From Oleomonas cavernae (GTDB taxonomy: Bacteria; Pseudomonadota; Alphaproteobacteria; Zavarziniales; Zavarziniaceae), in NCBI RefSeq assembly GCF_003590945.1, contig NZ_QYUK01000011.1:2632001-2696000 (forward strand): a stretch of 64,000 nt of DNA, written 5' to 3'. A model generated the notes under the pieces. The model made no database searches and was not told the origin of the DNA. It worked only from the letters and a program-made list of their open reading frames with translations. The translations under genes were made by a program, and so were the position numbers. Positions 1 through 37,842 of this stretch are shown here, in pieces; positions within the stretch are counted from its first letter, which is position 1; each line of letters opens with the position of its first letter.

Positions 1-2517
1 CGAGACGATGCGCTCCGAGATCAGGATCGAGTCTTCGAAGTTGTAACCGTTCCAGGGCATGAACGCGACGAGCACGTTGCGGCCCAGGGCCAGTTCGCCC
101 AATTCGGTCGAGGGACCGTCGGCGATGATGTCGCCCTTGTTCACCAGGTCGCCCACCTTCACCAGCGGGCGCTGGGTGATGCAGGTGTTCTGGTTGGAAC
201 GCTGGAACTTCAGCAGGCGGTGGATGTCGACGCCCGAGGCCGCCGGATCATTCTCCTCGGTGGCGCGGACGACGATGCGCGTGCCGTCGATCTGGTCGAC
301 GACGCCGCTGCGCTTGGCGATGATGGCAACACCCGAATCCCGGGCCACCACCTCTTCCATGCCGGTGCCGACCAGCGGCGCTTCCGCCTTGATCAGCGGC
401 ACCGCCTGGCGCTGCATGTTCGAGCCCATCAGCGCGCGGTTGGCGTCGTCGTTCTCCAGGAACGGGATCAAGGCCGCGGCGACCGAGACGAGCTGCTTCG
501 GCGACACGTCCATCATGTTGATCTGGGACGGGATGGTCATGACGAACTCGCCCGCCTCGCGGCACGACACCAGGTCGGCCATGAAGCGGCCTTCGCCGTC
601 CAGCTCCGCGTTCGCCTGGGCGATCGTGTACTTGCCTTCCTCCATGGCCGACAGATAGACGACTTCGCTGGTCACGCGACTGTCGAGCACCTTGCGGTAG
701 GGGGTCTCGATGAAACCGTACTGGTTCACCCGGGCATAGGTCGCCAGCGAGTTGATCAGGCCGATGTTCGGGCCCTCCGGGGTCTCGATCGGGCAGATGC
801 GGCCGTAGTGGGTCGGATGCACGTCGCGCACCTCGAAGCCGGCACGCTCACGGGTCAGACCGCCAGGCCCAAGCGCCGAGAGACGACGCTTGTGCGTGAT
901 CTCGGACAGCGGATTGGTCTGGTCCATGAACTGGCTGAGCTGCGAGGAACCGAAGAACTCGCGCACCGCCGCCGCCGCGGGCTTGGCATTGATCAGGTCG
1001 TGCGGCATCACGGTCTCGATCTCGACCGAGGACATGCGCTCGCGGATCGCTCGCTCCATGCGCAGCAGGCCGATGCGATACTGGTTTTCCATCAGCTCGC
1101 CGACCGAGCGGACGCGACGGTTGCCCAGGTGATCGATGTCGTCGATCTCGCCGCGGCCGTCTTTCAGCTCGACCAGGGTCTTGATCACCGCCAGGATGTC
1201 TTCCTTGCGCAGGGTGCGCTGGGTATCCGGGGTCTCGAGATTCAGGCGCGAGTTCATCTTCACCCGGCCCACGGCCGAGAGGTCGTAACGCTCGCTATCG
1301 AACAGCAGGCCCTGGAACAGCGCCGAGGCGGTGTCGAGGGTCGGCGGCTCGCCGGGACGCATGACGCGGTAGATCTCGATCAGCGCCTGTTCATAGGACT
1401 GATTCTTGTCCGCCATCATGGTGTTGCGGATATAGGGGCCGACCGTGACATGGTCGATATCCAGGGTCGCGAATTCCTGGACGCCCGACTCTTCCATCAC
1501 CTTGATCAAGGCTTCGGTCAGTTCCTCGCCGGCCTCGATCAGGATCTCGCCCGTGGTCTCGTTGATCATGTCGTTGCCGGCATAGCGGCCGACCAGATCC
1601 GACGAGGCGACGAACAGTTCCTCGACGCCTTCTTCCTTCAGCTTCTTGGCCATGCGCGGGGTGACCTTGGTCCCCGCCGGCACCACGACCTTGCCGGTCT
1701 TGGCGTCGATCAGGTCGGTCAACGGCTTGATGCCGCGGATGCGCTCGGGCTCGAAGGCGGTGCGCCACTGGCCCTGGGCCTTGCCGTCCTTGCCGGAGCC
1801 CTGGCGGCGATAGGCCACGACACGGTAGAAGTGATGCAGGATCTCTTCCGCGGTCATGCCCAGGGCGAACATCAGCGAGGACACCGGCAGCTTGCGCCGG
1901 CGGTCGATGCGGACGTGGACGATATCCTTGGCGTCGAACTCGAAATCGAGCCACGAGCCGCGATAGGGAATGACCCGGGCGGCGAACAGGTACTTGCCGC
2001 TGGCGTGGGTCTTGCCGCGGTCGTGATCGAAGAACACGCCGGGCGACCGGTGCATCTGGCTGACGATCACGCGCTCGGTCCCGTTCACCACGAAGGTGCC
2101 GTTGGCGGTCATCAGGGGCATGTCGCCCATGTAGACGTCCTGTTCCTTGATATCGAGAACGGACTTGGCGCCCGTATCTTCATCGGTCTCAAAGACGATC
2201 AGACGCAGCGTCACCTTCAAGGGCGCCGCGAAGGTCATGCCGCGCTGCTGGCATTCCTCGACGTCGTATTTCGGGTGTTCGAATTCGTATTTCACGAACT
2301 CGAGATGAGCGTTCTCGGAGAAGTCCTTGATCGGGAAGACCGACTTGAACACGCCCTGGATACCAGTATCGGTTCGCTTCTCGGCCGGCACGTCCATCTG
2401 CAGGAACTGGTCGTAGCTCGACTTTTGAACTTCGATCAGATTCGGCATGGTCGAGACTTCAGGGATGCGCCCGAAGCTCTTGCGGACCCGCTTGCGGCCA
2501 GTGAAGGAAATCGCCAT
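1..2517 (-). CDS. rpoB: RNA polymerase beta subunit (partial, C-terminus off window)
   Basis: Catalytic beta subunit of RNA polymerase. The first 839 codons are present, starting [20 protein letters not shown], and the gene runs off the left edge. The rifampicin-binding cluster (about positions 841-950) reads [22 protein letters not shown] followed by LSALGPGG, with the wild-type Asp, His and Ser at the positions usually mutated in resistance. The later [20 protein letters not shown] block is intact. It is last in the visible minus-strand operon, 162 bases after rplL; rpoC is expected beyond position 1. Identity is certain. Confidence 0.98.
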
Positions 2518-2632
2518 GGGGAGCCTCTCGACAACTCTCGTCTGCGCTACCTTGATAAAGATGCGGAACGGCGCGCAGCCGGATGTTCCGTCATCGCCCT
2601 CCGGGCCGGCCCTTCGCCGCCGAAGGGAGACC

Positions 2633-2654
2633 GGGGGCGGGCGAACCCGCCCCC
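2633..2654 (-). promoter_or_regulatory. rplL-rpoB intergenic hairpin
   Basis: Perfect 9-bp stem (GGGGGCGGG / CCCGCCCCC) with a 4-base loop, about 25 bases after the rplL stop and 116 before the rpoB start. No T-run follows. In many bacteria this interval carries a partial terminator or RNase III site that sets the ratio of ribosomal protein to RpoB. That role is inferred from position and structure. Confidence 0.5.
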
Positions 2655-2679
2655 GATAACCGACAGATCGATCGTTAAA

Positions 2680-3054
<375 letters not shown>

Positions 3055-3099: not shown

Positions 3100-3624
3100 T
3101 CACGCCGCCTGCGCCTCGTCCTTGGTCGCATAAGCCGAAAGCACCCGGGCCAACTGACCGCCCGGTGCCTGAAGCACCGATGCGATCCGCGACGCCGGGG
3201 TCTGGATCATGCCAAGGAGCCTGCCACGCAGTTCGTCGAGGGACGGCAGGGTCGCCAGGGCTTTGACACCCTCGACGTCCAATGTCGTCCCGCCCATCAC
3301 GCCGCCCTTCAGAACGAACTTGTCGTTCTTCTTGGCGTATTCGACCGCGACTTTCGCCGCGGCGACCGGATCATCCGAATAGGCGATCGCGGTCGGACCC
3401 TTGAGCAGGTCCCCGATGGCTTCGAACTTCGTGCCATGGAGCGCAAGCTTGGTGAGCCGGTTCTTGGAAACCTTGAAGCCGGCACCGGCAGCGCGCATCT
3501 GGCGACGGAGATCGGTGATCTCCGAGACCTTCAACCCGCTGTAGTGCCCCACGACCACCAGAGAGGTCTTGTCGAAGACCTCCGAGAGGGTCGTGACCAG
3601 CTCCTTCTTTGCGGCTCTGTCCAC
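3100..3624 (-). CDS. rplJ: 50S ribosomal protein L10
   Basis: 174-residue L10, the base of the L7/L12 stalk. The N-terminus [20 protein letters not shown] and the rRNA-binding region ([13 protein letters not shown]) are typical, and the C-terminal helix ends [10 protein letters not shown]. Translation starts at GTG (3624), preceded by GGGAG at a suitable distance. In bacteria the L10-L12 complex represses its own messenger through the leader upstream, and the 366-base leader here fits that. Confidence 0.97.
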
Positions 3625-3990
3625 CTTGTTACTCCCGAGTTAGCCGAACATGCACCATGCGTGCCCGGCCGTTTTTGCCCAAGATCGCGGCTAGCGGCCG
3701 CGACCCGTGACACCTGTCCCAGGAAAGACCCGATCTTGGACACGAGGCGCTAAAACCCGTGCTGCTGCCCGGATACGTCCGGGCCCGAAATCGAGCTGTC
3801 TCCCGTCTATGCTGGCGGTTTTTAAGTTCCCCCTGTTCGCATGCGACAGGGAGAACACCAGCAGTCTCGGACAGGGTGGCGATCCGGTCTCCCGGACCAC
3901 CCTTCCCGGCCGTTGCCGACCGGGAAACCCTGAAAGTCCCCCGATCAGGTGACCGGGAGACCTTCAAACTCACAAATCGTCAGATGGTCG
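3625..3990 (-). promoter_or_regulatory. rplJ leader region (L10 autoregulatory leader candidate)
   Basis: A 366-base gene-free interval between rplA and rplJ in an otherwise tight operon. The minus strand contains several hairpin-forming stretches, for example the CGGGCCCGG / CCGGG segment near 3765-3785. No credible coding frame is present: the open frames have no conserved sequence or good ribosome site. Position and size match the L10 leader that binds the L10-L12 complex. The kink-turn itself was not modelled, so the call rests mainly on context. A promoter for rplJL-rpoBC may also lie here. Confidence 0.55.
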
Positions 3991-26245: not shown

Positions 26246-26372
26246 CGGGCGCGATTGTGGCCATGCCCGGCCACTTGAACAAGGCGCATTGAGCGCCCGC
26301 GTAGCTTTAGCGGAGCGAGCCAAGGCCGCGGATGCGGCCGCCCGGCGCCTGAGGGACAAATGTAAGTAAGGT

Positions 26373-26557: not shown

Positions 26558-27913
26558 TCACGCGGCCTCGCGCTCGCAGGCCGCCACATAGGCCAGCACC
26601 GCCTCGGACCAGCCATCGATGCGGGTCAGCGTGGCGCTGTCCCGCACGAGTGCCGGCTTGTACGGCGCCACGTTGACGACCCAGGTCGGCACCCCCGGCG
26701 GCCAGGCCACGGTGTCGTGGCTCTGTTCGTCGGTGATGACGATGAACCGGGTGGCCTTGCGCAGGCGCCGCTCCAGGCCCGCCACCGCCTTGCCCAACAG
26801 GGTTCCGGCAAACGGCTGGCTGGCCACGACCGCGTCGCGCAGGGCAAAGCCCCGGCGCGACGCCACCTCGACCAGCTGGTTCGAGAAGGTGTGCACCTCA
26901 ACCTGGTCGCACACCTCCCGCGCCAGCACGGCAAGGCCGCAGGCCGCGTCGATCCGCGTCGTCTCGCTCCGGGGTGCGATCGGCGCCCCCATCGAACCGG
27001 AGACGTCGATCAGCAGCACCGTGTGCCCGGCCAGCGCCAGGTCCAGCCTGCCCGTTGCCCGGAACATGGCCGCCTCCAGCGCCGCCTCGGCCCAGGGCGC
27101 GTGGCGCGCCGCCGTGACGAAGCGGAACGGCAGCACGCGGTCGACCCGCTTGGCCGCCAGCGCCGTCTCGATCAGGTCGTGCTCGACGCCGGCCTTCTCC
27201 ATCAGGCGCAGGTTGCGCAACAGGGCCAGGGCACCCAGCCGGTTCTCGCCCAGCAGCCGCTCGAACGTCGCGCGCTTGTCGGCCCCGCTCGAGAGCGCCA
27301 CCTCCCAGGTATCGGGGGTGGCGAGGCTGCCCGCCTTCACCTTGGCCAGGAGCAGGGCCTGCGCCTCGCTCTCCGGCTTGGGGTGGGTCAGGCGCAGCAC
27401 GTCGACCAGCTTGATCGGGCCATCCCTGTCGTACTTGGCGAGCTGGTACTCGTCGAACTTCAGGAAGGCCCGGCCCAGGCCCTTCTTGACCTGGGCGGCC
27501 AGCGGCGCCCGCTTGACGATGCCCTCCGGGCTGCCGGCCCAATAGAGGGCCAGGAACTCGGCCAGCTCGTCCGGCCGCTCGACCACGTCGGCCAGCACGC
27601 CTGCGACCAGCGGCCGGTAGCGCTCGTGCCGCACCATCTCGCGGGCCAGCAGCAGCGGCACATGCCGCAGCTTGAACGCGCGCCGGGCCTCGCGGGCCAG
27701 ATCGGCAACGCGTGCCGGCTCGACCTGAGGGACCAGGTTGGCGATGCGGTCGGCGATGGCGACCCCGCCCTCGTAGAAGCTGTCCTCCCACAACAGGCAG
27801 CTCAGCACCGCCTTGCGCAGGGAGGCATAGGGCGTGAGGGGCACGGCGAGCGCGCCCTCGTGAGTCTTCGCGGTGATCCCCGCGAGAAGGGACTTGATGT
27901 TGAGACGAGCCAT
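26558..27913 (-). CDS. rsr: Ro60-family TROVE/vWA RNA-binding protein (Rsr)
   Basis: 451 residues. TROVE domain first (~10-290), made of HEAT-like helical repeats (LRKAVLSCLLWEDSFYEGGV, IADRIANLVPQV, AREMVRHERYRPLVAGVLAD). A C-terminal von Willebrand A domain carries a MIDAS motif D303-x-S-x-S (LIDVSGSMGAP) and ends VAACEREAA. Ro60 proteins are rings that bind misfolded RNA inside the pore and Y RNA on the outside, and help exoribonucleases. It is shorter than the ~530 residues usual for Ro60. AAAGGAGGT lies 5 bases before the ATG. The tRNA-like Y RNA array sits directly upstream on the same strand. Confidence 0.92.
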   Translation of the reverse strand: MARLNIKSLLAGITAKTHEGALAVPLTPYASLRKAVLSCLLWEDSFYEGGVAIADRIANLVPQVEPARVADLAREARRAFKLRHVPLLLAREMVRHERYRPLVAGVLADVVERPDELAEFLALYWAGSPEGIVKRAPLAAQVKKGLGRAFLKFDEYQLAKYDRDGPIKLVDVLRLTHPKPESEAQALLLAKVKAGSLATPDTWEVALSSGADKRATFERLLGENRLGALALLRNLRLMEKAGVEHDLIETALAAKRVDRVLPFRFVTAARHAPWAEAALEAAMFRATGRLDLALAGHTVLLIDVSGSMGAPIAPRSETTRIDAACGLAVLAREVCDQVEVHTFSNQLVEVASRRGFALRDAVVASQPFAGTLLGKAVAGLERRLRKATRFIVITDEQSHDTVAWPPGVPTWVVNVAPYKPALVRDSATLTRIDGWSEAVLAYVAACEREAA

Positions 27914-28147
27914 GTCGCACCTCCTTTCTGCCGGTGTCGGGCTCCTTGGAAAAATCGGTCTTGCCGGGAAGTAGTGAAAGCGGCTGCCCCGCCGGCGTGC
28001 CGGCGGTGGGGGTTCTCGGCCCCCTGGCTTGGTGGAGCGATGTAACCGCTGTCTGCGCCACGGCAAGAGTGGCGATGGTGACCCCATCGGGTAGTTTGGT
28101 GGCGGCGCCCTTTTTCGTTTCCAGCGAAGTAATCGCCGCCGGCGCCA

Positions 28148-28315
28148 CGATGGGGCCTGCCGGGTTGCTTTCGGGAACGCTCTTTTCCAGTGCTCTACCA
28201 TTGAGCTTCGGCGGGCTCGCGCCCGTCGGCAGGAATCGAACCTGCGGCCTCTGCGTTATGATCGAAGAAGTCGTCCCCTGCGCCACGGCAGGTCTCGATA
28301 AAGGTTACCCCATCG
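28148..28315 (-). ncRNA. YrlA-like Y RNA, copy 2 (permuted tRNA mimic)
   Basis: Read on the minus strand. CGATGGGG (28308-28315) pairs with CCCCATCG (28148-28155), and inside it CCTGCCG (28286-28292) pairs with CGGCAGG (28156-28162). Then GGGGACG pairs with CGTTCCC. The tRNA-like head reads T-arm GCAGGTTCGATTCCTGC (28229-28245), acceptor-like hairpin ACGGGC-GCGA-GCCCGC (28211-28226, GNRA loop), D-arm GCTCAATGGTAGAGC (28192-28206). This order is a circularly permuted tRNA without an anticodon arm, as known for YrlA RNAs bound by Rsr. The ends are estimated. No encoded CCA. Confidence 0.8.
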
Positions 28316-28403
28316 GGTAGCTTGGTGGTGACGTATCTATAAAGTCGAGGAGCCAAGGGCCCCCACGCCAGCCGAAGAATTCGCCGCCTGCGCCACGATG
28401 GGG

Positions 28404-28531
28404 CCTGCCGGGTTGCTTTCGGGAACGCTCTTTTCCAGTGCTCTACCGTCGAGCTTCGGCGGGCTTGCGCCCGTCGGCAGGAGTCGAACCTGCGACCTCT
28501 ACGAAGAAATAGTTCCCTGCGCCACGGCAGG
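28404..28531 (-). ncRNA. YrlA-like Y RNA, copy 1 (permuted tRNA mimic)
   Basis: Same architecture as the downstream copy. Closing stem CCTGCCG (28525-28531) / CGGCAGG (28404-28410); inner stem GGGAAC / GTTCCC; T-arm GCAGGTTCGACTCCTGC (28477-28493); acceptor-like hairpin with GCAA tetraloop in ACGGGC-GCAA-GCCCGC; D-arm GCTCGACGGTAGAGC. T54-T55-C56 and the D-loop GG are retained, so the D-T elbow can form. Differences from copy 2 keep pairing or loop class (GCAA versus GCGA; A-T versus G-T in the inner stem). The outer CGATGGGG strand is missing upstream; GGGGCC at ~28546-28553 may replace it. The transcript probably starts near 28551. Confidence 0.8.
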
Positions 28532-28561
28532 ATTGAAAATATGACTGTCGGCCCCGCCTGT

Positions 28562-28577
28562 TGCGGGGCCTTTGCCA
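28562..28577 (-). promoter_or_regulatory. Candidate sigma-54 promoter for the Y RNA/rsr unit
   Basis: The minus strand reads TGGCAAAGGCCCCGCA. The GG and GC pairs are separated by exactly 10 bases as in TGGCAC-N5-TTGCA, matching 8 of 11 consensus positions. The predicted start is ~28551, 20 bases before copy 1. In Salmonella the rsr-yrlBA-rtcBA unit is sigma-54/RtcR controlled, so the site is plausible. It overlaps a GC-rich inverted repeat (GGCCCCGC / GCGGGGCC, 28550-28570), so chance resemblance is possible. No rtcR is in the window. Confidence 0.35.
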
Positions 28578-28729
28578 GGCCTGGCCGGGATCGCCGACAT
28601 TCCTGGCACCGCCATCGGTGTCGGGGCTTGTCGCCCCCGTTCCCTCCGGCGGTCCCCGCGCTTTGGGCGTTACACCCCAAGGTCCGGGTCCCTTGGCCCG
28701 GCGCGCGGAAATATCCTGGCGGCGGGCAG

Positions 28730-28763
28730 AAAAAAACCTCTCGCGGCGGGGCCGGAGAGGTTT
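28730..28763 (-). terminator. Intrinsic terminator of the ncRNA
   Basis: On the minus strand AACCTCTC (28755-28762) pairs with GAGAGGTT (28735-28742) around a GC-rich 12-base loop, followed by a run of T (28730-28736). Canonical Rho-independent form. Confidence 0.8.
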
Positions 28764-28969
28764 GCTGCGTCGCCGCTGACCTGTTCGTCAGACGGAAACA
28801 TCCTCTCTCGCCCCATGGCCGCCGGCGCGACCGTATCCAGCGCATGCCGGATGCAGGTCGACCGTCGATAGCCCTTCGGCTATCCGGCGATTGTCCTGTT
28901 CAATCCACATGCGTGACACGGGTCTTGCTCCGAAAACGGCCAGGCCGGCAGGGTGCCGCTGGCGAGAGG
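28730..28969 (-). ncRNA. Unassigned structured ncRNA with own promoter and terminator
   Basis: A ~240-base minus-strand transcript is bounded by a good promoter (28976-29003) and an intrinsic terminator (28730-28763), with no credible coding frame. A closing helix CCTCTCGCC (28961-28969) / GGCGAGAGAGG (28802-28812) brackets ~168 bases. Inside, CTGCCGGCCTGGCCG pairs with CGGTCGCGCCGGCGG with a single mismatch, and there are apical hairpins GATAGCC-GAAG-GGCTATC and GATTG/CAATC. Length and closing helix would fit a 6S-type RNA, but no conserved 6S bubble was recognised and the neighbours are not typical. The family is unassigned. Confidence 0.55.
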
Positions 28970-28975
28970 AACGGA

Positions 28976-29003
28976 CTTATACGCCCGTCTTGCGGGAAGT
29001 AAA
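28976..29003 (-). promoter_or_regulatory. Predicted sigma-70 promoter of the ncRNA
   Basis: On the minus strand -35 TTTACT (28998-29003) and -10 TATAAG (28976-28981) are spaced by 16 bases. The predicted start near 28969 falls exactly at the 5' strand of the RNA's closing helix. Confidence 0.55.
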
Positions 29004-32477: not shown

Positions 32478-34313
32478 ATGACGGCATCCGGACTTTCCCG
32501 CCGCAGCCTGCTCGCCGCCCTCGCCGCCACGCCATTGCTTGGCCCGCTGCTCACGCGCCGGGCCTTTGCCCAGGCGCCGGTCCACGGCCTCGCCATGCAC
32601 GGCGACCTCAAATACCCCGCCGGCTTCACCCAGTTCGACTATGTCAACGTCGACGCCCCCAAGGGCGGGGAATTGCGGCTGGGCGTGCTGGGCAGCTTCG
32701 ATTCGCTCAACCCGTTCATCGTCCTGGGCGATCCCGCCGCGGGTGCGGGCGCCATCTACGATACCCTGACCGTTCAGGCCCAGGACGAACCTTTCTCGGA
32801 ATATGGCCTGCTGGCGGAATCGATCAGCGTCGGACCCAACAGCGCCTTTGTCGAATACACCCTGCGGCCCCAGGCCAGGTTCCACGACGGCACGCCGGTC
32901 ACCGCGGCGGACCTGATCTTCAGCCTGGAAGCCCTGAAGACCAAGGGCCACCCCTTCTATCGCAGCTACTACGCCAATGTCGCCAAGGCGGAAGCCGTGG
33001 GCGAGCATGGCCTGCGCTTCATCTTCGATCAGCCGGGCAACCGTGAACTGCCGCTGATCATGGGGCAACTGGTCGCCCTGCCCCGCCGCTATTGGGAAGG
33101 CCGCGACTTTGCCATTCCCAGCCTCGATGTCCCCCTGGGATCGGGGCCCTATCGCATCGGGCGGGTCGACGCCGGGCGCGCCCTCGTGCTGGAACGGGTG
33201 GCCGACTACTGGGGCCGCGACCTGCCCGTCAGCCGCGGCCTGAACAATTTCGACCGCTTGCGCTACGACTACTTCCGCGACGAAACGGCGAACATGGAAG
33301 CGTTCAAGAGCGGCGCGCTCGATGCCCGCGTCGAGCGCGTGGCGCGGCTGTGGGCGACCGCCTACACTTTCCCGGCGGTGACGGCGGGCAAGGTCAAGAA
33401 GCTGGAACTGCCCGACAACAACCCCGCGGGCATGCAGGCGTTCGTCTTGAACATCCGCAAGCCCAAGTTCCAGAATGCCAAGCTGCGCCAGGCCCTGGGC
33501 TTCGCCTTCGATTTCGAATGGACCAACAAGGCGCTGTTCTATGGCGCCTATACCCGCACCACCAGCTACTTTGCCAATTCCGAAATGGCCGCCACCGGCC
33601 TGCCTCAAGGCGCCGAACTGGCGCTACTGGAACCGTTCCGCGACAAGCTGCCGCCGGAATTGTTCACCAGCGAATTCACGGTGCCGGTCAGCGACGCCTC
33701 GGGCCAGGACCGCGCCCTGCTGCGCCGGGCCAAGCAACTGCTGACCGAGGCGGGTTACACCGTGAAGGGCGGCAAGCTGGTCGATGGCGGCGGCCAGCCG
33801 CTGACCATCGAATTCCTGCTCGACGATTCGACCTTCGAGCGGGTCGTCGAGCCCTATATCAAGAACCTGACACAACTCGGCATCGCGGCGAACATTCGCA
33901 GTGTCGATCCGCCGCAATATATCCAGCGGACCAACAAGTTCGACTTCGACGTCATCGTGAACGTGTTTGGGCAATCCCTGTCGCCCGGCAACGAGCAGCG
34001 GGAATTCTGGGGCAGCGCGGTCGCCGATCTCGACGGCAGCCGTAACCTGATCGGGATCAAGGATCCGGTCGTCGACGTGCTGATCGACAAGATCATCTTC
34101 GCCACCGACCGCGAGGGCCTGGTCACCGCCTGCCGTGCCCTGGACCGCGTGTTGTCCTGGGGTTACTACGTCGTGCCGCACTGGTATTCGGCCATCGACC
34201 GCATCGCCGTCTGGGACCGTTTCGGCCGCCCCGACACGCAGCCGCGCTACGCCACCGGCTTCCCCGATACCTGGTGGTTCGATCCGGCCAAGAACGCCGC
34301 CCTCAGGGGTTGA
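32478..34313 (+). CDS. ABC transporter substrate-binding protein, YejA-like (lone copy)
   Basis: 611 residues. A twin-arginine signal (SRRSLLAALAATPLLGPLLT) then the family-5 oligopeptide-binding fold: FTQFDYVNVDAPKGGELRLG, SFDSLNPFIVLG, ADLIFSLEALKTKGHP, FDFEWTNKALFYGAYTRTTS, and the end DTWWFDPAKNAAL. The neighbour at 35995 is a paralogue with the same layout. This copy has no permease genes of its own and may feed the YejBEF complex with another peptide set. Its end overlaps the convergent SGNH-TPR gene by 11 bases. Confidence 0.9.
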   Translation: MTASGLSRRSLLAALAATPLLGPLLTRRAFAQAPVHGLAMHGDLKYPAGFTQFDYVNVDAPKGGELRLGVLGSFDSLNPFIVLGDPAAGAGAIYDTLTVQAQDEPFSEYGLLAESISVGPNSAFVEYTLRPQARFHDGTPVTAADLIFSLEALKTKGHPFYRSYYANVAKAEAVGEHGLRFIFDQPGNRELPLIMGQLVALPRRYWEGRDFAIPSLDVPLGSGPYRIGRVDAGRALVLERVADYWGRDLPVSRGLNNFDRLRYDYFRDETANMEAFKSGALDARVERVARLWATAYTFPAVTAGKVKKLELPDNNPAGMQAFVLNIRKPKFQNAKLRQALGFAFDFEWTNKALFYGAYTRTTSYFANSEMAATGLPQGAELALLEPFRDKLPPELFTSEFTVPVSDASGQDRALLRRAKQLLTEAGYTVKGGKLVDGGGQPLTIEFLLDDSTFERVVEPYIKNLTQLGIAANIRSVDPPQYIQRTNKFDFDVIVNVFGQSLSPGNEQREFWGSAVADLDGSRNLIGIKDPVVDVLIDKIIFATDREGLVTACRALDRVLSWGYYVVPHWYSAIDRIAVWDRFGRPDTQPRYATGFPDTWWFDPAKNAALRG

Positions 34314-35892: not shown

Positions 35893-35994
35893 GCCTCCGC
35901 CCGCTGCCTCAGGGCGGCGAGGATAGCGTGATTGCCGGCCAAACCCAATCGAGGTGGCTTTCACGGCGCGCGCGGCTTGCTATCATCCCGCCCG

Positions 35995-37842
35995 ATGTCG
36001 CGCGCCGCCCTTCGCCTGATCCTGACCGCCTTCGCCCTGATGCTGGGCGTGGCCGCGGCCCATGGCGAGCCCCGCCACGGCTTCTCGCCCTTCGGCGACC
36101 TGGGCTACCCGGCCGATTTCAGCCACTTCGCCTATGTCGACCCCGATGCCCCCAAGGGCGGATTGCTGCGCCTGTCGGCCCTGGGCACCTTCGATTCGCT
36201 CAATCCCTTCATCGTCCGCGGCCTGCCGCCGATCAGCGGCATGGGCCTGCTCTACGGCGGCCTGGACCTGACCTTCGATAGCCTGCTGGTGGCGAGCGCC
36301 GACGAGCCGGACAGCTTCTACGGCCAATTGGCCGAATCGGTCGAGGTGGCGGCGGACCTGTCGAGCGTCACCTTCCGCCTGCGGGCACAGGCCCGCTTCG
36401 CCGACGGTACGCCGGTCACGGCGGCGGATGTCGCTGCCACGGCCCAGGCGCTGCGCACCAAGGGCGACCCGGTGTGGCGCCAGCGCCTGGCCGACATCGG
36501 CGCGATCGAGAGCCCCGACCCGCTGACCGTGACGGTGATTTTCACCGGCGCCACCAGACGCACCCTGCCCATCGCCATCGCCACCATGCCGGTGCTCGCC
36601 GCCGCCTGGCTGAAGGACCGGGACTTCGGCATGCCCAGCCTGGAGGCGCCGCTGGCCTCGGGCCCCTACCGCGTGGCGGTGGTGGAGCCCGGCCGCAGCA
36701 TCACCTTCGAGCGGCGGGCGGATTACTGGGGCCGCGACCTGCCCGTCAACCGCGGGCGCTTCAACTTCGACCGCGTCCGCTTCGATTACTACCGCGACCG
36801 CGACGTGGATTTCGAAGCCTTCAAGGCCGGGGCCTATGATTTCCGCGAGGAGTTCACCTCGCGCCTGTGGGCCACCGGCTATGCCGGCCCCGCCGTCGAC
36901 AAGGGCCTGATCCGGCGGGCCAGCGTCGCCGACGAACGCCCCACCGGCATCCAGGCCTTCTTCCTGAACCTGCGGCGGCCCAAGTTCCAGGACATGCGCG
37001 TGCGCCAGGCGATCGGCTCGGCCTTCGATTTCGAATGGTCGAACCGGGCCCTGTTCTTCGGCGCCTACAAGCGCATGGCCTCGATCTTCGAGAATGCCCC
37101 GCTGGCCGCCCACGGCCGCCCCACGGCGGCCGAGCTTTCGCTGCTCGAAATGTACCGCGGCAAGGTACCCGACAGCGTCTATGGCGAACCCTACTTCCCG
37201 CCGCTGTCGGATGGCTCGGGCGAATTGCGCGACCGCCTGAAGGCGGCGCGCGACCTGCTGGCCCAGGCCGGCTGGCGCATCGCCGACGGCCGGCTGGTGA
37301 ACGAGAAGGGCGAGACCTTCGAGATCGAGTTCCTGCTCGACGAGCCGTCGTTCGAGCGCATCGTCCGGCCCTTCATGGCCAATCTCGACCGCCTGGGCTT
37401 CATCACCAAATACCGCGAGATGGAGACGACCGGTTACACCGTGCGCCGGCAGAACTACGACTACGACGTGGTGACCCAGCGTTACGGCCTCGATCCCACC
37501 CCGACGGTCGAACTGCGCGACCTGTGGGGTTCGGGCGCGGCCGACAGCCCGGGCAGCCAGAACCTCGCCGGCATCAAGGATCCCGTGGTCGACGCCCTGA
37601 TCGAACGGGTGATCGCGGCCGATACCCGGCCGGACTATGAAACCGCGGCCCGGGCGCTGGACCGGGTGGTGATGTGGAACGAGTACATCATCCCGCAATG
37701 GTACAAGAGCGAGCGCAACATCGCCTGGTGGGACCGCTTCGGGCGCCCGCCCCTGCCGCCGCGCTACGACCTGGGCGTGCTCGACACCTGGTGGTACGAC
37801 GCCGCGCGGGCTGCGGCGACCGATGCCGGAAAGGCGCCATAG
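35995..37842 (+). CDS. yejA: ABC transporter substrate-binding protein YejA
   Basis: 615 residues. A Sec signal peptide (MSRAALRLILTAFALMLGVA) then the family-5 solute-binding fold: FAYVDPDAPKGGLLRLSALG, TFDSLNPFIVRGLPP, FDFEWSNRALFFGAYKRMAS, ending DTWWYDAARAAATDAGKAP. Binds peptides in the periplasm. The stop is adjacent to the yejB start, so it belongs to the yejABEF unit. Many short motifs are shared with the product of the gene at 32478. Confidence 0.92.
   Translation: MSRAALRLILTAFALMLGVAAAHGEPRHGFSPFGDLGYPADFSHFAYVDPDAPKGGLLRLSALGTFDSLNPFIVRGLPPISGMGLLYGGLDLTFDSLLVASADEPDSFYGQLAESVEVAADLSSVTFRLRAQARFADGTPVTAADVAATAQALRTKGDPVWRQRLADIGAIESPDPLTVTVIFTGATRRTLPIAIATMPVLAAAWLKDRDFGMPSLEAPLASGPYRVAVVEPGRSITFERRADYWGRDLPVNRGRFNFDRVRFDYYRDRDVDFEAFKAGAYDFREEFTSRLWATGYAGPAVDKGLIRRASVADERPTGIQAFFLNLRRPKFQDMRVRQAIGSAFDFEWSNRALFFGAYKRMASIFENAPLAAHGRPTAAELSLLEMYRGKVPDSVYGEPYFPPLSDGSGELRDRLKAARDLLAQAGWRIADGRLVNEKGETFEIEFLLDEPSFERIVRPFMANLDRLGFITKYREMETTGYTVRRQNYDYDVVTQRYGLDPTPTVELRDLWGSGAADSPGSQNLAGIKDPVVDALIERVIAADTRPDYETAARALDRVVMWNEYIIPQWYKSERNIAWWDRFGRPPLPPRYDLGVLDTWWYDAARAAATDAGKAP

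Follow-up and report, generated by a model that had tools for sequence, protein, structure and literature searches.

Two RNAs that resemble rearranged tRNAs stand directly before a Ro60 gene in the genome of the alphaproteobacterium Oleomonas cavernae, and the locus raises the question of what these RNAs are, how the locus came to lie where it does and what might switch it on. We addressed this question computationally in the window, by which we mean the whole stretch of 64,000 nucleotides that was analysed, and in related loci from other genomes. Our reading is that the region is very probably an acquired Ro60 ribonucleoprotein operon with Y RNAs, an assessment that leaves aside a putative attenuator further upstream. 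The anatomy of the sequence, the covariation in the Y RNAs and in a structured RNA before them (R1), the synteny around the insertion and the co-occurrence across genomes are directly seen.

On the minus strand, from position 28531 to 27959, five RNA units follow one another in tandem ahead of the Ro60 ORF. The first-pass annotation had described two minus-strand RNAs with a T-arm, a GNRA-capped stem and a D-arm, closed by CCTGCCG/CGGCAGG, and both are present as Y1 (28404..28531) and Y3 (28156..28292), the Y RNAs with a tRNA mimic. In Y1, the T-arm lies at 28477-28493, a GCAA-capped stem at 28457-28476 and the D-arm at 28440-28454; the corresponding parts of Y3 are a T-arm at 28229-28245, a GCGA-capped stem at 28209-28228 and a D-arm at 28192-28206 (all on the minus strand). 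Both are assigned by matches to the YrlA covariance model and by covariation, and Y3 additionally as a duplicate of the Y1 region. The other three units of this strand, Y2 (28308..28403, closing stem CCCCATCG/CGATGGGG), Y4 (28082..28155, a minimal Y RNA of 74 nt) and Y5 (27959..28068), have a closing stem and core as in Y1 and Y3 but no tRNA-like part, and are assigned by the shared 30-nt core and the predicted fold, complemented in Y4 and Y5 by the P2 partner (see below).

Sequence comparison within the region recovers the 30-nt 5' core in five copies, of which that of Y5 (GGTTACATCG..TTCC) is by eye nearest to the consensus of the relatives. Y1 plus Y2 and Y3 plus Y4 are two copies of one unit, 93% identical over 131 nt and offset by 248, with zero spacer inside the pairs, Y2 abutting Y1 and Y4 abutting Y3. 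The earlier claim of duplicated Y RNAs therefore stands as far as the duplication goes and is corrected in number, from two RNAs to five, three of which have no tRNA mimic. The RNA lengths predicted from the coordinates are 128, 96, 137, 74 and 110 nt for Y1 to Y5. Directly before Y1, a hairpin GGCCCCGC/GCGGGGCC (28550..28570, minus strand) is followed by a U-rich stretch (28532-28549), and on their sequence the two make a possible processing site. The genome holds a single array, and a second copy of either the array or Ro60 was ruled out, one of each being found.

Downstream of the array lies the ORF at 26558..27913 (minus strand), which agrees with the earlier placement of the RNAs upstream of a TROVE/vWA gene. 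Pfam, alignment and an AlphaFold model identify its product as a Ro60/Rsr orthologue of 451 aa with TROVE and vWA domains, and AAAGGAGG at 27920..27927 (minus strand) is its likely Shine-Dalgarno sequence. Pfam TROVE (PF05731) matched at 52.9 bits (E 4.5e-14, cut-off 23), which assigns the domain; vWA_Ro60 scored 21.7, under its cut-off of 27.7. Among 15 aligned sequences (the window and 14 relatives), the MIDAS residues (DxSxS, T, D) D303, S305, S307 and D395 are invariant and T371 is nearly so. The AlphaFold model has a pLDDT of 84.1, and Foldseek matched it to 9kop, 9l5y, 1yvp and 2nvo (E 1.5e-19 to 5.7e-12, TM(query) 0.56-0.72). The best structural matches were a TROVE domain (9kop) and the phiLo Ro60, from a Thermus phage (9l5y), the latter matching in sequence too, at about 1e-25. 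The frame is intact, and this Ro60 is the only one in the genome.

Are the five units Y RNAs? The Rfam YrlA model (RF02553) matches Y1 end to end with 36.1 bits (E 5.7e-6 for 1.1 kb) and Y3 partially with 32.7 bits, both under the gathering score of 69. At gathering level, Rfam returned nothing Y-like in the whole window, where it listed only four tRNAs and the SRP RNA. Three related loci likewise stay under 69, with YrlA matches of at most 42.1 bits, which indicates that the family threshold misses this clade. The YrlA covariance model, proposed earlier as a check, thus yields a match for both RNAs and a score short of the gathering level for both.

Homologues show strong compensatory change in the stems, whose absence had been named earlier as a ground for refutation, and the order of T-arm, acceptor-like stem and D-arm described from the sequence, permuted as in YrlA, is upheld for Y1 and Y3. 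The tRNA-like domain was aligned across 14 RNAs from 13 loci, hand-picked from the 22 units with both arms at one or two per locus. In this alignment 96.0% of cells are paired and 13 of the 17 pairs show two-sided changes, a level reached in 0 of 500 shuffles; the number of pair types was reached in 2 of 500, and slid controls came out far lower. Since the search for units already made use of the P1 closing stem, its pairing is no evidence. Pairing in the P2 helix played no part in picking the units, and P2 was examined in 52 of 56 units, the other four having been judged misparsed by eye and set aside beforehand. With their own partners, the P2 strands pair at a mean of -11.4 kcal/mol, compared to -5.7 kcal/mol when partners are permuted (0 of 10000 permutations as good), and permutation within loci only (45 RNAs, 16 loci) also gave 0 of 10000. 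Ranked among the 52 candidates (0 being best), the own partner stands at 0 for Y1, 2 for Y3, 0 for Y4, 3 for Y5 and 28 for Y2, the weakest of the five; in Y4 and Y5, P2 pairing is maintained despite changed sequences. A closing stem, a covarying P2 and a conserved core strand, which define a Y RNA in the broad sense, are found together in the units, weakly so in Y2. Single-RNA folding energies are modestly better than those of shuffles (z -1.41 to -2.85).

Units of this kind recur upstream of Ro60 in relatives. We scanned 30 loci (27 from genome contigs, two more of the class, L030 and L031, and the window), of which seven kept no unit and 23 gave 56 units. Dropped before counting were duplicates, all matches in L014, L020 and L025, one in L022 and four units longer than 172 nt (one in L015 and three in L030). 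Automatic classification puts 22 of the 56 in a class with both T-arm and D-arm, 12 in one with the T-arm alone and 22 in one with neither arm. A second detector, written after such loci had been seen and applied to 21 loci of the window's class (window included), counted 66 sense-strand units before Ro60 and none antisense, with 31, 11 and 24 in the same three classes; outside the array it matched once in the 64-kb window. By both readings, the window has two units with both arms, zero with a T-arm only and three with neither. The number of detected Y RNA units in this clade ranges from 1 to 6 per locus. Species reportedly often have several Y RNAs, at least one of them with a tRNA-like domain, an observation attributed to Chen and dated to 2014. 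The upstream regions of weak Ro60 matches were left out of the analysis.

Two further loci were noted in passing. At the Ro60 locus of Bauldia (L019, about 3201-3980), short upstream repeats look by eye like minimal Y RNAs, one of which was detected. In L094, a Y RNA unit and Ro60 flank an ORF that by eye resembles an AmtB transporter (1503-2831, plus strand), which implies that the array and the Ro60 gene can be separated.

It is very improbable, and in our judgement ruled out by the permuted order of the arms together with their covariation over 14 RNAs from 13 loci, that Y1 and Y3 are tRNA genes that decayed or were rearranged, or a scar left by integration at a tRNA, and have no function. 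This reading is suggested by the ARAGORN call of a tRNA-Met(cat) at 28221-28292 (minus strand), a part of Y3, where the Rfam tRNA model scores 23.4 bits (threshold 29). It is opposed also by the three sibling units entirely without a tRNA part and by units of this type that precede Ro60 in records whose titles name Acidobacteria, Planctomycetes, Clostridia and other groups. Because the ARAGORN call falls within Y3, automatic annotation may mislabel this RNA.

How the Y RNAs and Ro60 came to lie here is apparent from the neighbouring genomes. Ro60 is absent from all six other genomes of the genus and family, and the four sister genomes examined retain synteny on both sides with insert-free sites beside the SRP RNA, which rules out vertical inheritance in the genus. 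In these four sisters, the SRP RNA match is separated from the next match by 237 to 309 bases, compared to 2771 to 2808 in the window. Weak matches (E 4e-4 to 0.22) carry the right flank to about 29083, which puts the inserted length at about 2.6 kb. Two features of the surroundings may be recorded here: a dispersed, REP-like repeat of ~58-64 bp beside the SRP RNA (26300-26363, minus strand), which recurs elsewhere in the own genome and in each of the six relatives searched, and two paralogous ORFs (32478-34313 and 35932-37842, plus strand) that by eye resemble extracellular solute-binding proteins. More broadly, Ro60 is rare in the class, being found in 4 of 385 genomes drawn, one of the four matches weak. 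It occurs in 17 of 96 genomes of one family and in 16 of 347 genomes of one order, 13 of those 16 matches being weak.

The own genome (96.3% complete) gave 0 matches to RtcB (PF01139), so the ligase that accompanies Ro60 in an RNA-repair operon was not found here. RtcB was present in 12 of the 18 genomes searched, with RtcB genes near Ro60 also in G363, G633 and G486. Of 20 related loci, 12 have an RtcB motif on the downstream side of Ro60, at most ~1.1 kb away; for 18 of the 20 loci, the downstream sequence available extended just 1.0-1.5 kb. Such figures could mean that the locus is the degenerating, functionless remnant of an RNA-repair operon that lost RtcB, and one genome, G451, shows decay of this sort, having retained the leader, R1, the array and RtcB next to a C-terminal remnant of Ro60. 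For the window we consider this improbable: the Ro60 frame is intact and keeps its MIDAS residues, Y4 and Y5 still pair though their sequences have changed, and two other Ro60 genomes (G449 and G394) are likewise without an RtcB match.

The acquired operon as we read it has a further component. Before the array lies R1 (also 'part B'; 28605..28696, minus strand), a covarying RNA marked by a hairpin loop GACCCGGA together with GCGCGGGG, GCCGGAGGGAACG and CACCGATGGC. It consists of the hairpin with loop GACCCGGA, followed by GCGCGGGG and then by a helix around GGAGGGAACG and CACCGAT. A pseudoknot CCCG/CGGG (4 bp) is possible; its strands are invariant, so it yields no covariation signal. A model built from 15 sequences, the window among them, matches the window at 28601-28698 with 78.7 bits. 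Across 15 of 16 leaders, the sixteenth (L085) being cut by a contig end, 12 of 20 pairs show two-sided changes (0 of 500 shuffles as high), and the number of pair types was reached in 8 of 500.

R1 largely tracks Ro60. Of the 18 related Ro60 loci (window included) whose upstream sequence is long enough, 16 carry R1, a count that omits L087, L091 and L099, where just 944, 238 and 907 nt were available; in the two others, L097 and L098, Ro60 and Y RNA units are present and R1 was not found. In the one family with 17 Ro60 genomes among 96, the R1 model is strong in 15, with 14 in common. The only genome of that family with strong R1 and without a full Ro60 is G451; its locus (L120) is a natural loss of Ro60 in which the leader, R1, the Y RNAs and RtcB are still there. 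Conversely, three genomes of the same family have Ro60 alone: in G442 and G467 the contigs end close upstream, and G394 is truly without R1. Across the class, an exact pattern for R1 matched three of the 385 genomes, namely those with a strong Ro60, and its reversed control was absent among the matches listed; the model is strong in the same three genomes and adds two weak matches elsewhere. R1 as a general partner of Ro60 was rejected, with no strong match in 27 genome-contig Ro60 loci, and at the Bauldia locus there was no R1 above noise. Rfam scans of the window and related loci also ruled out a known Rfam family: Rfam 15 gave nothing better than E 1.4 for the R1 of the window, and no match for that of L045, L046 or L120.

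RNA of this type also occurs outside Ro60 loci. The R1 model matches weakly in G350, between genes for 5S rRNA and tRNA, and in G110 and G145, by eye after a ParB/RepB-like gene. A pattern for the shared core was found in 46 IMG/VR stretches (L129-L174), not cleared of near-duplicates, and the R1 model, run on 10 of these contigs, scores 18.0 to 39.5 bits on them. Of 12 phage contigs inspected by eye, 10 have a RepB/ParB-like ORF that ends at most about 25 nt from the element or just overlaps it, and two (L133 and L136) have no such ORF; four proteins from three of these contigs carry a RepB domain. Ten plasmid records match the shared core as well, and their hosts fit Alphaproteobacteria. Three chromosomal copies (L121, L122 and L123) gave no Rfam match with E up to 1. 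The phage-contig RNA shares with R1 the hairpin loop GACCCGGA, the motif AAGCGCGGGGACCGC.GGAG and the 5' half in general. It differs in the 3' half, and in most inspected contigs it stands directly after a RepB-like gene rather than before Y RNAs.

Upstream of R1, the leader has the parts of a possible switch, all on the minus strand: a possible promoter TTTACT-N16-TATAAG (28976..29003, by eye), a possible leader ORF of 40 codons from ATG to TGA (28788..28910), a possible antiterminator whose 5' arm (GGGGCGAGAGAGG, 28802..28814) lies inside this ORF near its stop and whose 3' arm (CCTCTCCGGCCCC, 28748..28760) overlaps the 5' arm of a terminator, and this intrinsic terminator itself, ACCTCTC..GAGAGGT followed by TTTTTT (28730..28761). 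A consensus promoter scan of this stretch of the window found none. The consensus terminator scan, with its loop limit of 8, did not flag 28730..28761 and reported a sole terminator inside Y1; we regard this promoter and terminator scan as uninformative. All 15 readable leaders have a terminator stem with a U-tract, a short ORF that ends at the same place and a potential antiterminator pairing between the end of the ORF and the terminator 5' arm. Pairing of the terminator arms is no evidence in itself, since these arms were selected for forming the best stem. Ribosome-mediated attenuators of the trp/his type combine a short ORF, an antiterminator overlapping a terminator and a U-tract. With its possible ORF and antiterminator, the leader would be like them in these three respects; it is unlike them in that by eye no run of regulatory codons appears in any of the 15 leader peptides, a structured RNA follows the terminator, and the switching is putative.

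We favour the reading that the leader sets expression by attenuation. This reading is unproven, in our estimate has a little under an even chance, and is the weakest step of the account. It has to be weighed against a rival with similarly near-even prospects, namely that what precedes R1 is a small RNA in its own right, or else a simple fixed terminator that polymerase partly reads through, the ORF and the antiterminator arms being incidental. A terminator stem with U-tract in every leader is what this rival would predict, and the unmasked equilibrium fold falls on the terminator side in 10 of 15 leaders and on the antiterminator side in five, the window among the latter. On the other hand, R1 starts ~45-75 nt from the U-tract in 15/15 leaders, and together with the promoter scan of the window this suggests that read-through is needed. 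In each of the 15, the U-tract follows the ORF stop at a distance of 50-61 nt, and the 3' arm of the antiterminator, whose predicted duplex amounts to -19 to -28 kcal/mol, overlaps with the terminator arm. Masking the first arm gives the terminator in all 15 predicted folds.

The covariation of the antiterminator bears on both readings. In the full set, 3 of 10000 permutations paired as well (8 of 10000 on repeat); the own partner is best in 2 of 15 leaders, and one of these is the window, in which both arms differ from those of other leaders and yet pair. Without the window the figure becomes 111 of 10000, and without the window and L090, L093 and L094 it becomes 2907 of 10000, which means that the signal rests on the divergent window and this one close trio and is gone without them. 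The leader ORFs are weakly coding-like by codon-position GC (0.608/0.547/0.655), with the other frames closed in 10/15 and 8/15, and the ORF of the window is the longest, the least like the others and only weakly conserved. In the literature searched, titles and opening parts of abstracts mention no leader or attenuator before Ro60.

With attenuation as the favoured reading, the following mechanism can be proposed. A single minus-strand transcript would run from the leader through the five Y RNAs into the Ro60 mRNA. Each Y RNA would be a module in which a common closing stem and core dock on Ro60 and carry a variable head: a permuted tRNA mimic in Y1 and Y3, a plain or unrelated stem in Y2, Y4 and Y5. 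Docking on the closing stem and P2 is suggested by analogy with the lower stem described in PMC4726728. Extrapolating from work in D. radiodurans and Salmonella, the tRNA-like heads may be modified like tRNA and may recruit or gate a partner such as PNPase, and the plain heads may cap or gate the Ro60 ring. If the leader ORF were translated to its stop, the ribosome would cover the antiterminator arm and the terminator would form; if translation stalled or failed, the antiterminator would form and polymerase would read into R1, the Y RNAs and Ro60. A leader responsive to failed translation would answer by another route to the trigger used in Salmonella, tRNA damage. Ro60 binding, PNPase tethering and attenuation are thus steps that we infer. 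We further hypothesize, as a doubtful conjunction that we consider rather unlikely as a whole, that a ribosome-sensing attenuator in Ro60/Y RNA operons of this class brings about synthesis of tRNA-mimic Y RNAs and Ro60 when leader translation fails (for instance through damaged tRNAs) and that R1 represents a new class of RNA, found in phages and plasmids too, with a role just downstream, for example in processive antitermination across the untranslated hairpin array.

Several known systems help to place the locus. Compared to YrlA (RF02553), whose structure in Salmonella is 6CU1 (PMC8394870), Y1 and Y3 have the same closing stem and permuted T-arm, acceptor-like stem and D-arm, and they adjoin Ro60, as in relatives; here, however, the scores are below gathering level, five RNAs stand in tandem, three lack the tRNA-like domain and pairs abut. 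YrlA is reported to carry tRNA-type modification by TruB and DusA, and its tRNA-like part may bind PNPase (both PMC8394870). In D. radiodurans, a Y RNA has been proposed as tether and gate between Rsr and PNPase (PMC4726728); this complex (RYPER) likewise joins a Ro60 orthologue with a Y RNA, although its Rsr (2nvo) and the Ro60 of the window match only distantly in structure, at 18% identity. The Salmonella rsr-yrlBA-rtcBA operon, induced upon tRNA damage through RtcR (PMC7790460), also keeps Ro60 and Y RNAs together and resembles the 12 of 20 related loci with an RtcB motif just downstream, but differs from this genome, in which RtcB has no match. In a Listeria phage, several abundant RNAs within 2 kb upstream of an Rsr-like gene have been proposed as Y RNAs (PMC12282133); the layout is alike, whereas that locus is phage-borne and the identity of its RNAs is there a proposal. 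Taken together, the earlier reading of the locus is supported, and Y RNAs with Ro60 are of an already known kind; the novelty lies in an array that is tandem, mixed and unaccompanied by RtcB, and most of all in the conserved leader and its R1.

R1 is an RNA class without a match in the Rfam 15 scans made, and it ties a Ro60 locus to phages and plasmids. The genome, having Ro60 and no RtcB match, is a useful case in its own right. More generally, this clade offers natural Y RNA arrays in which the same core carries interchangeable heads, which bears on what several Y RNAs do, and the compact leader gives a handle on what switches on bacterial Ro60, an RNA quality-control machine.
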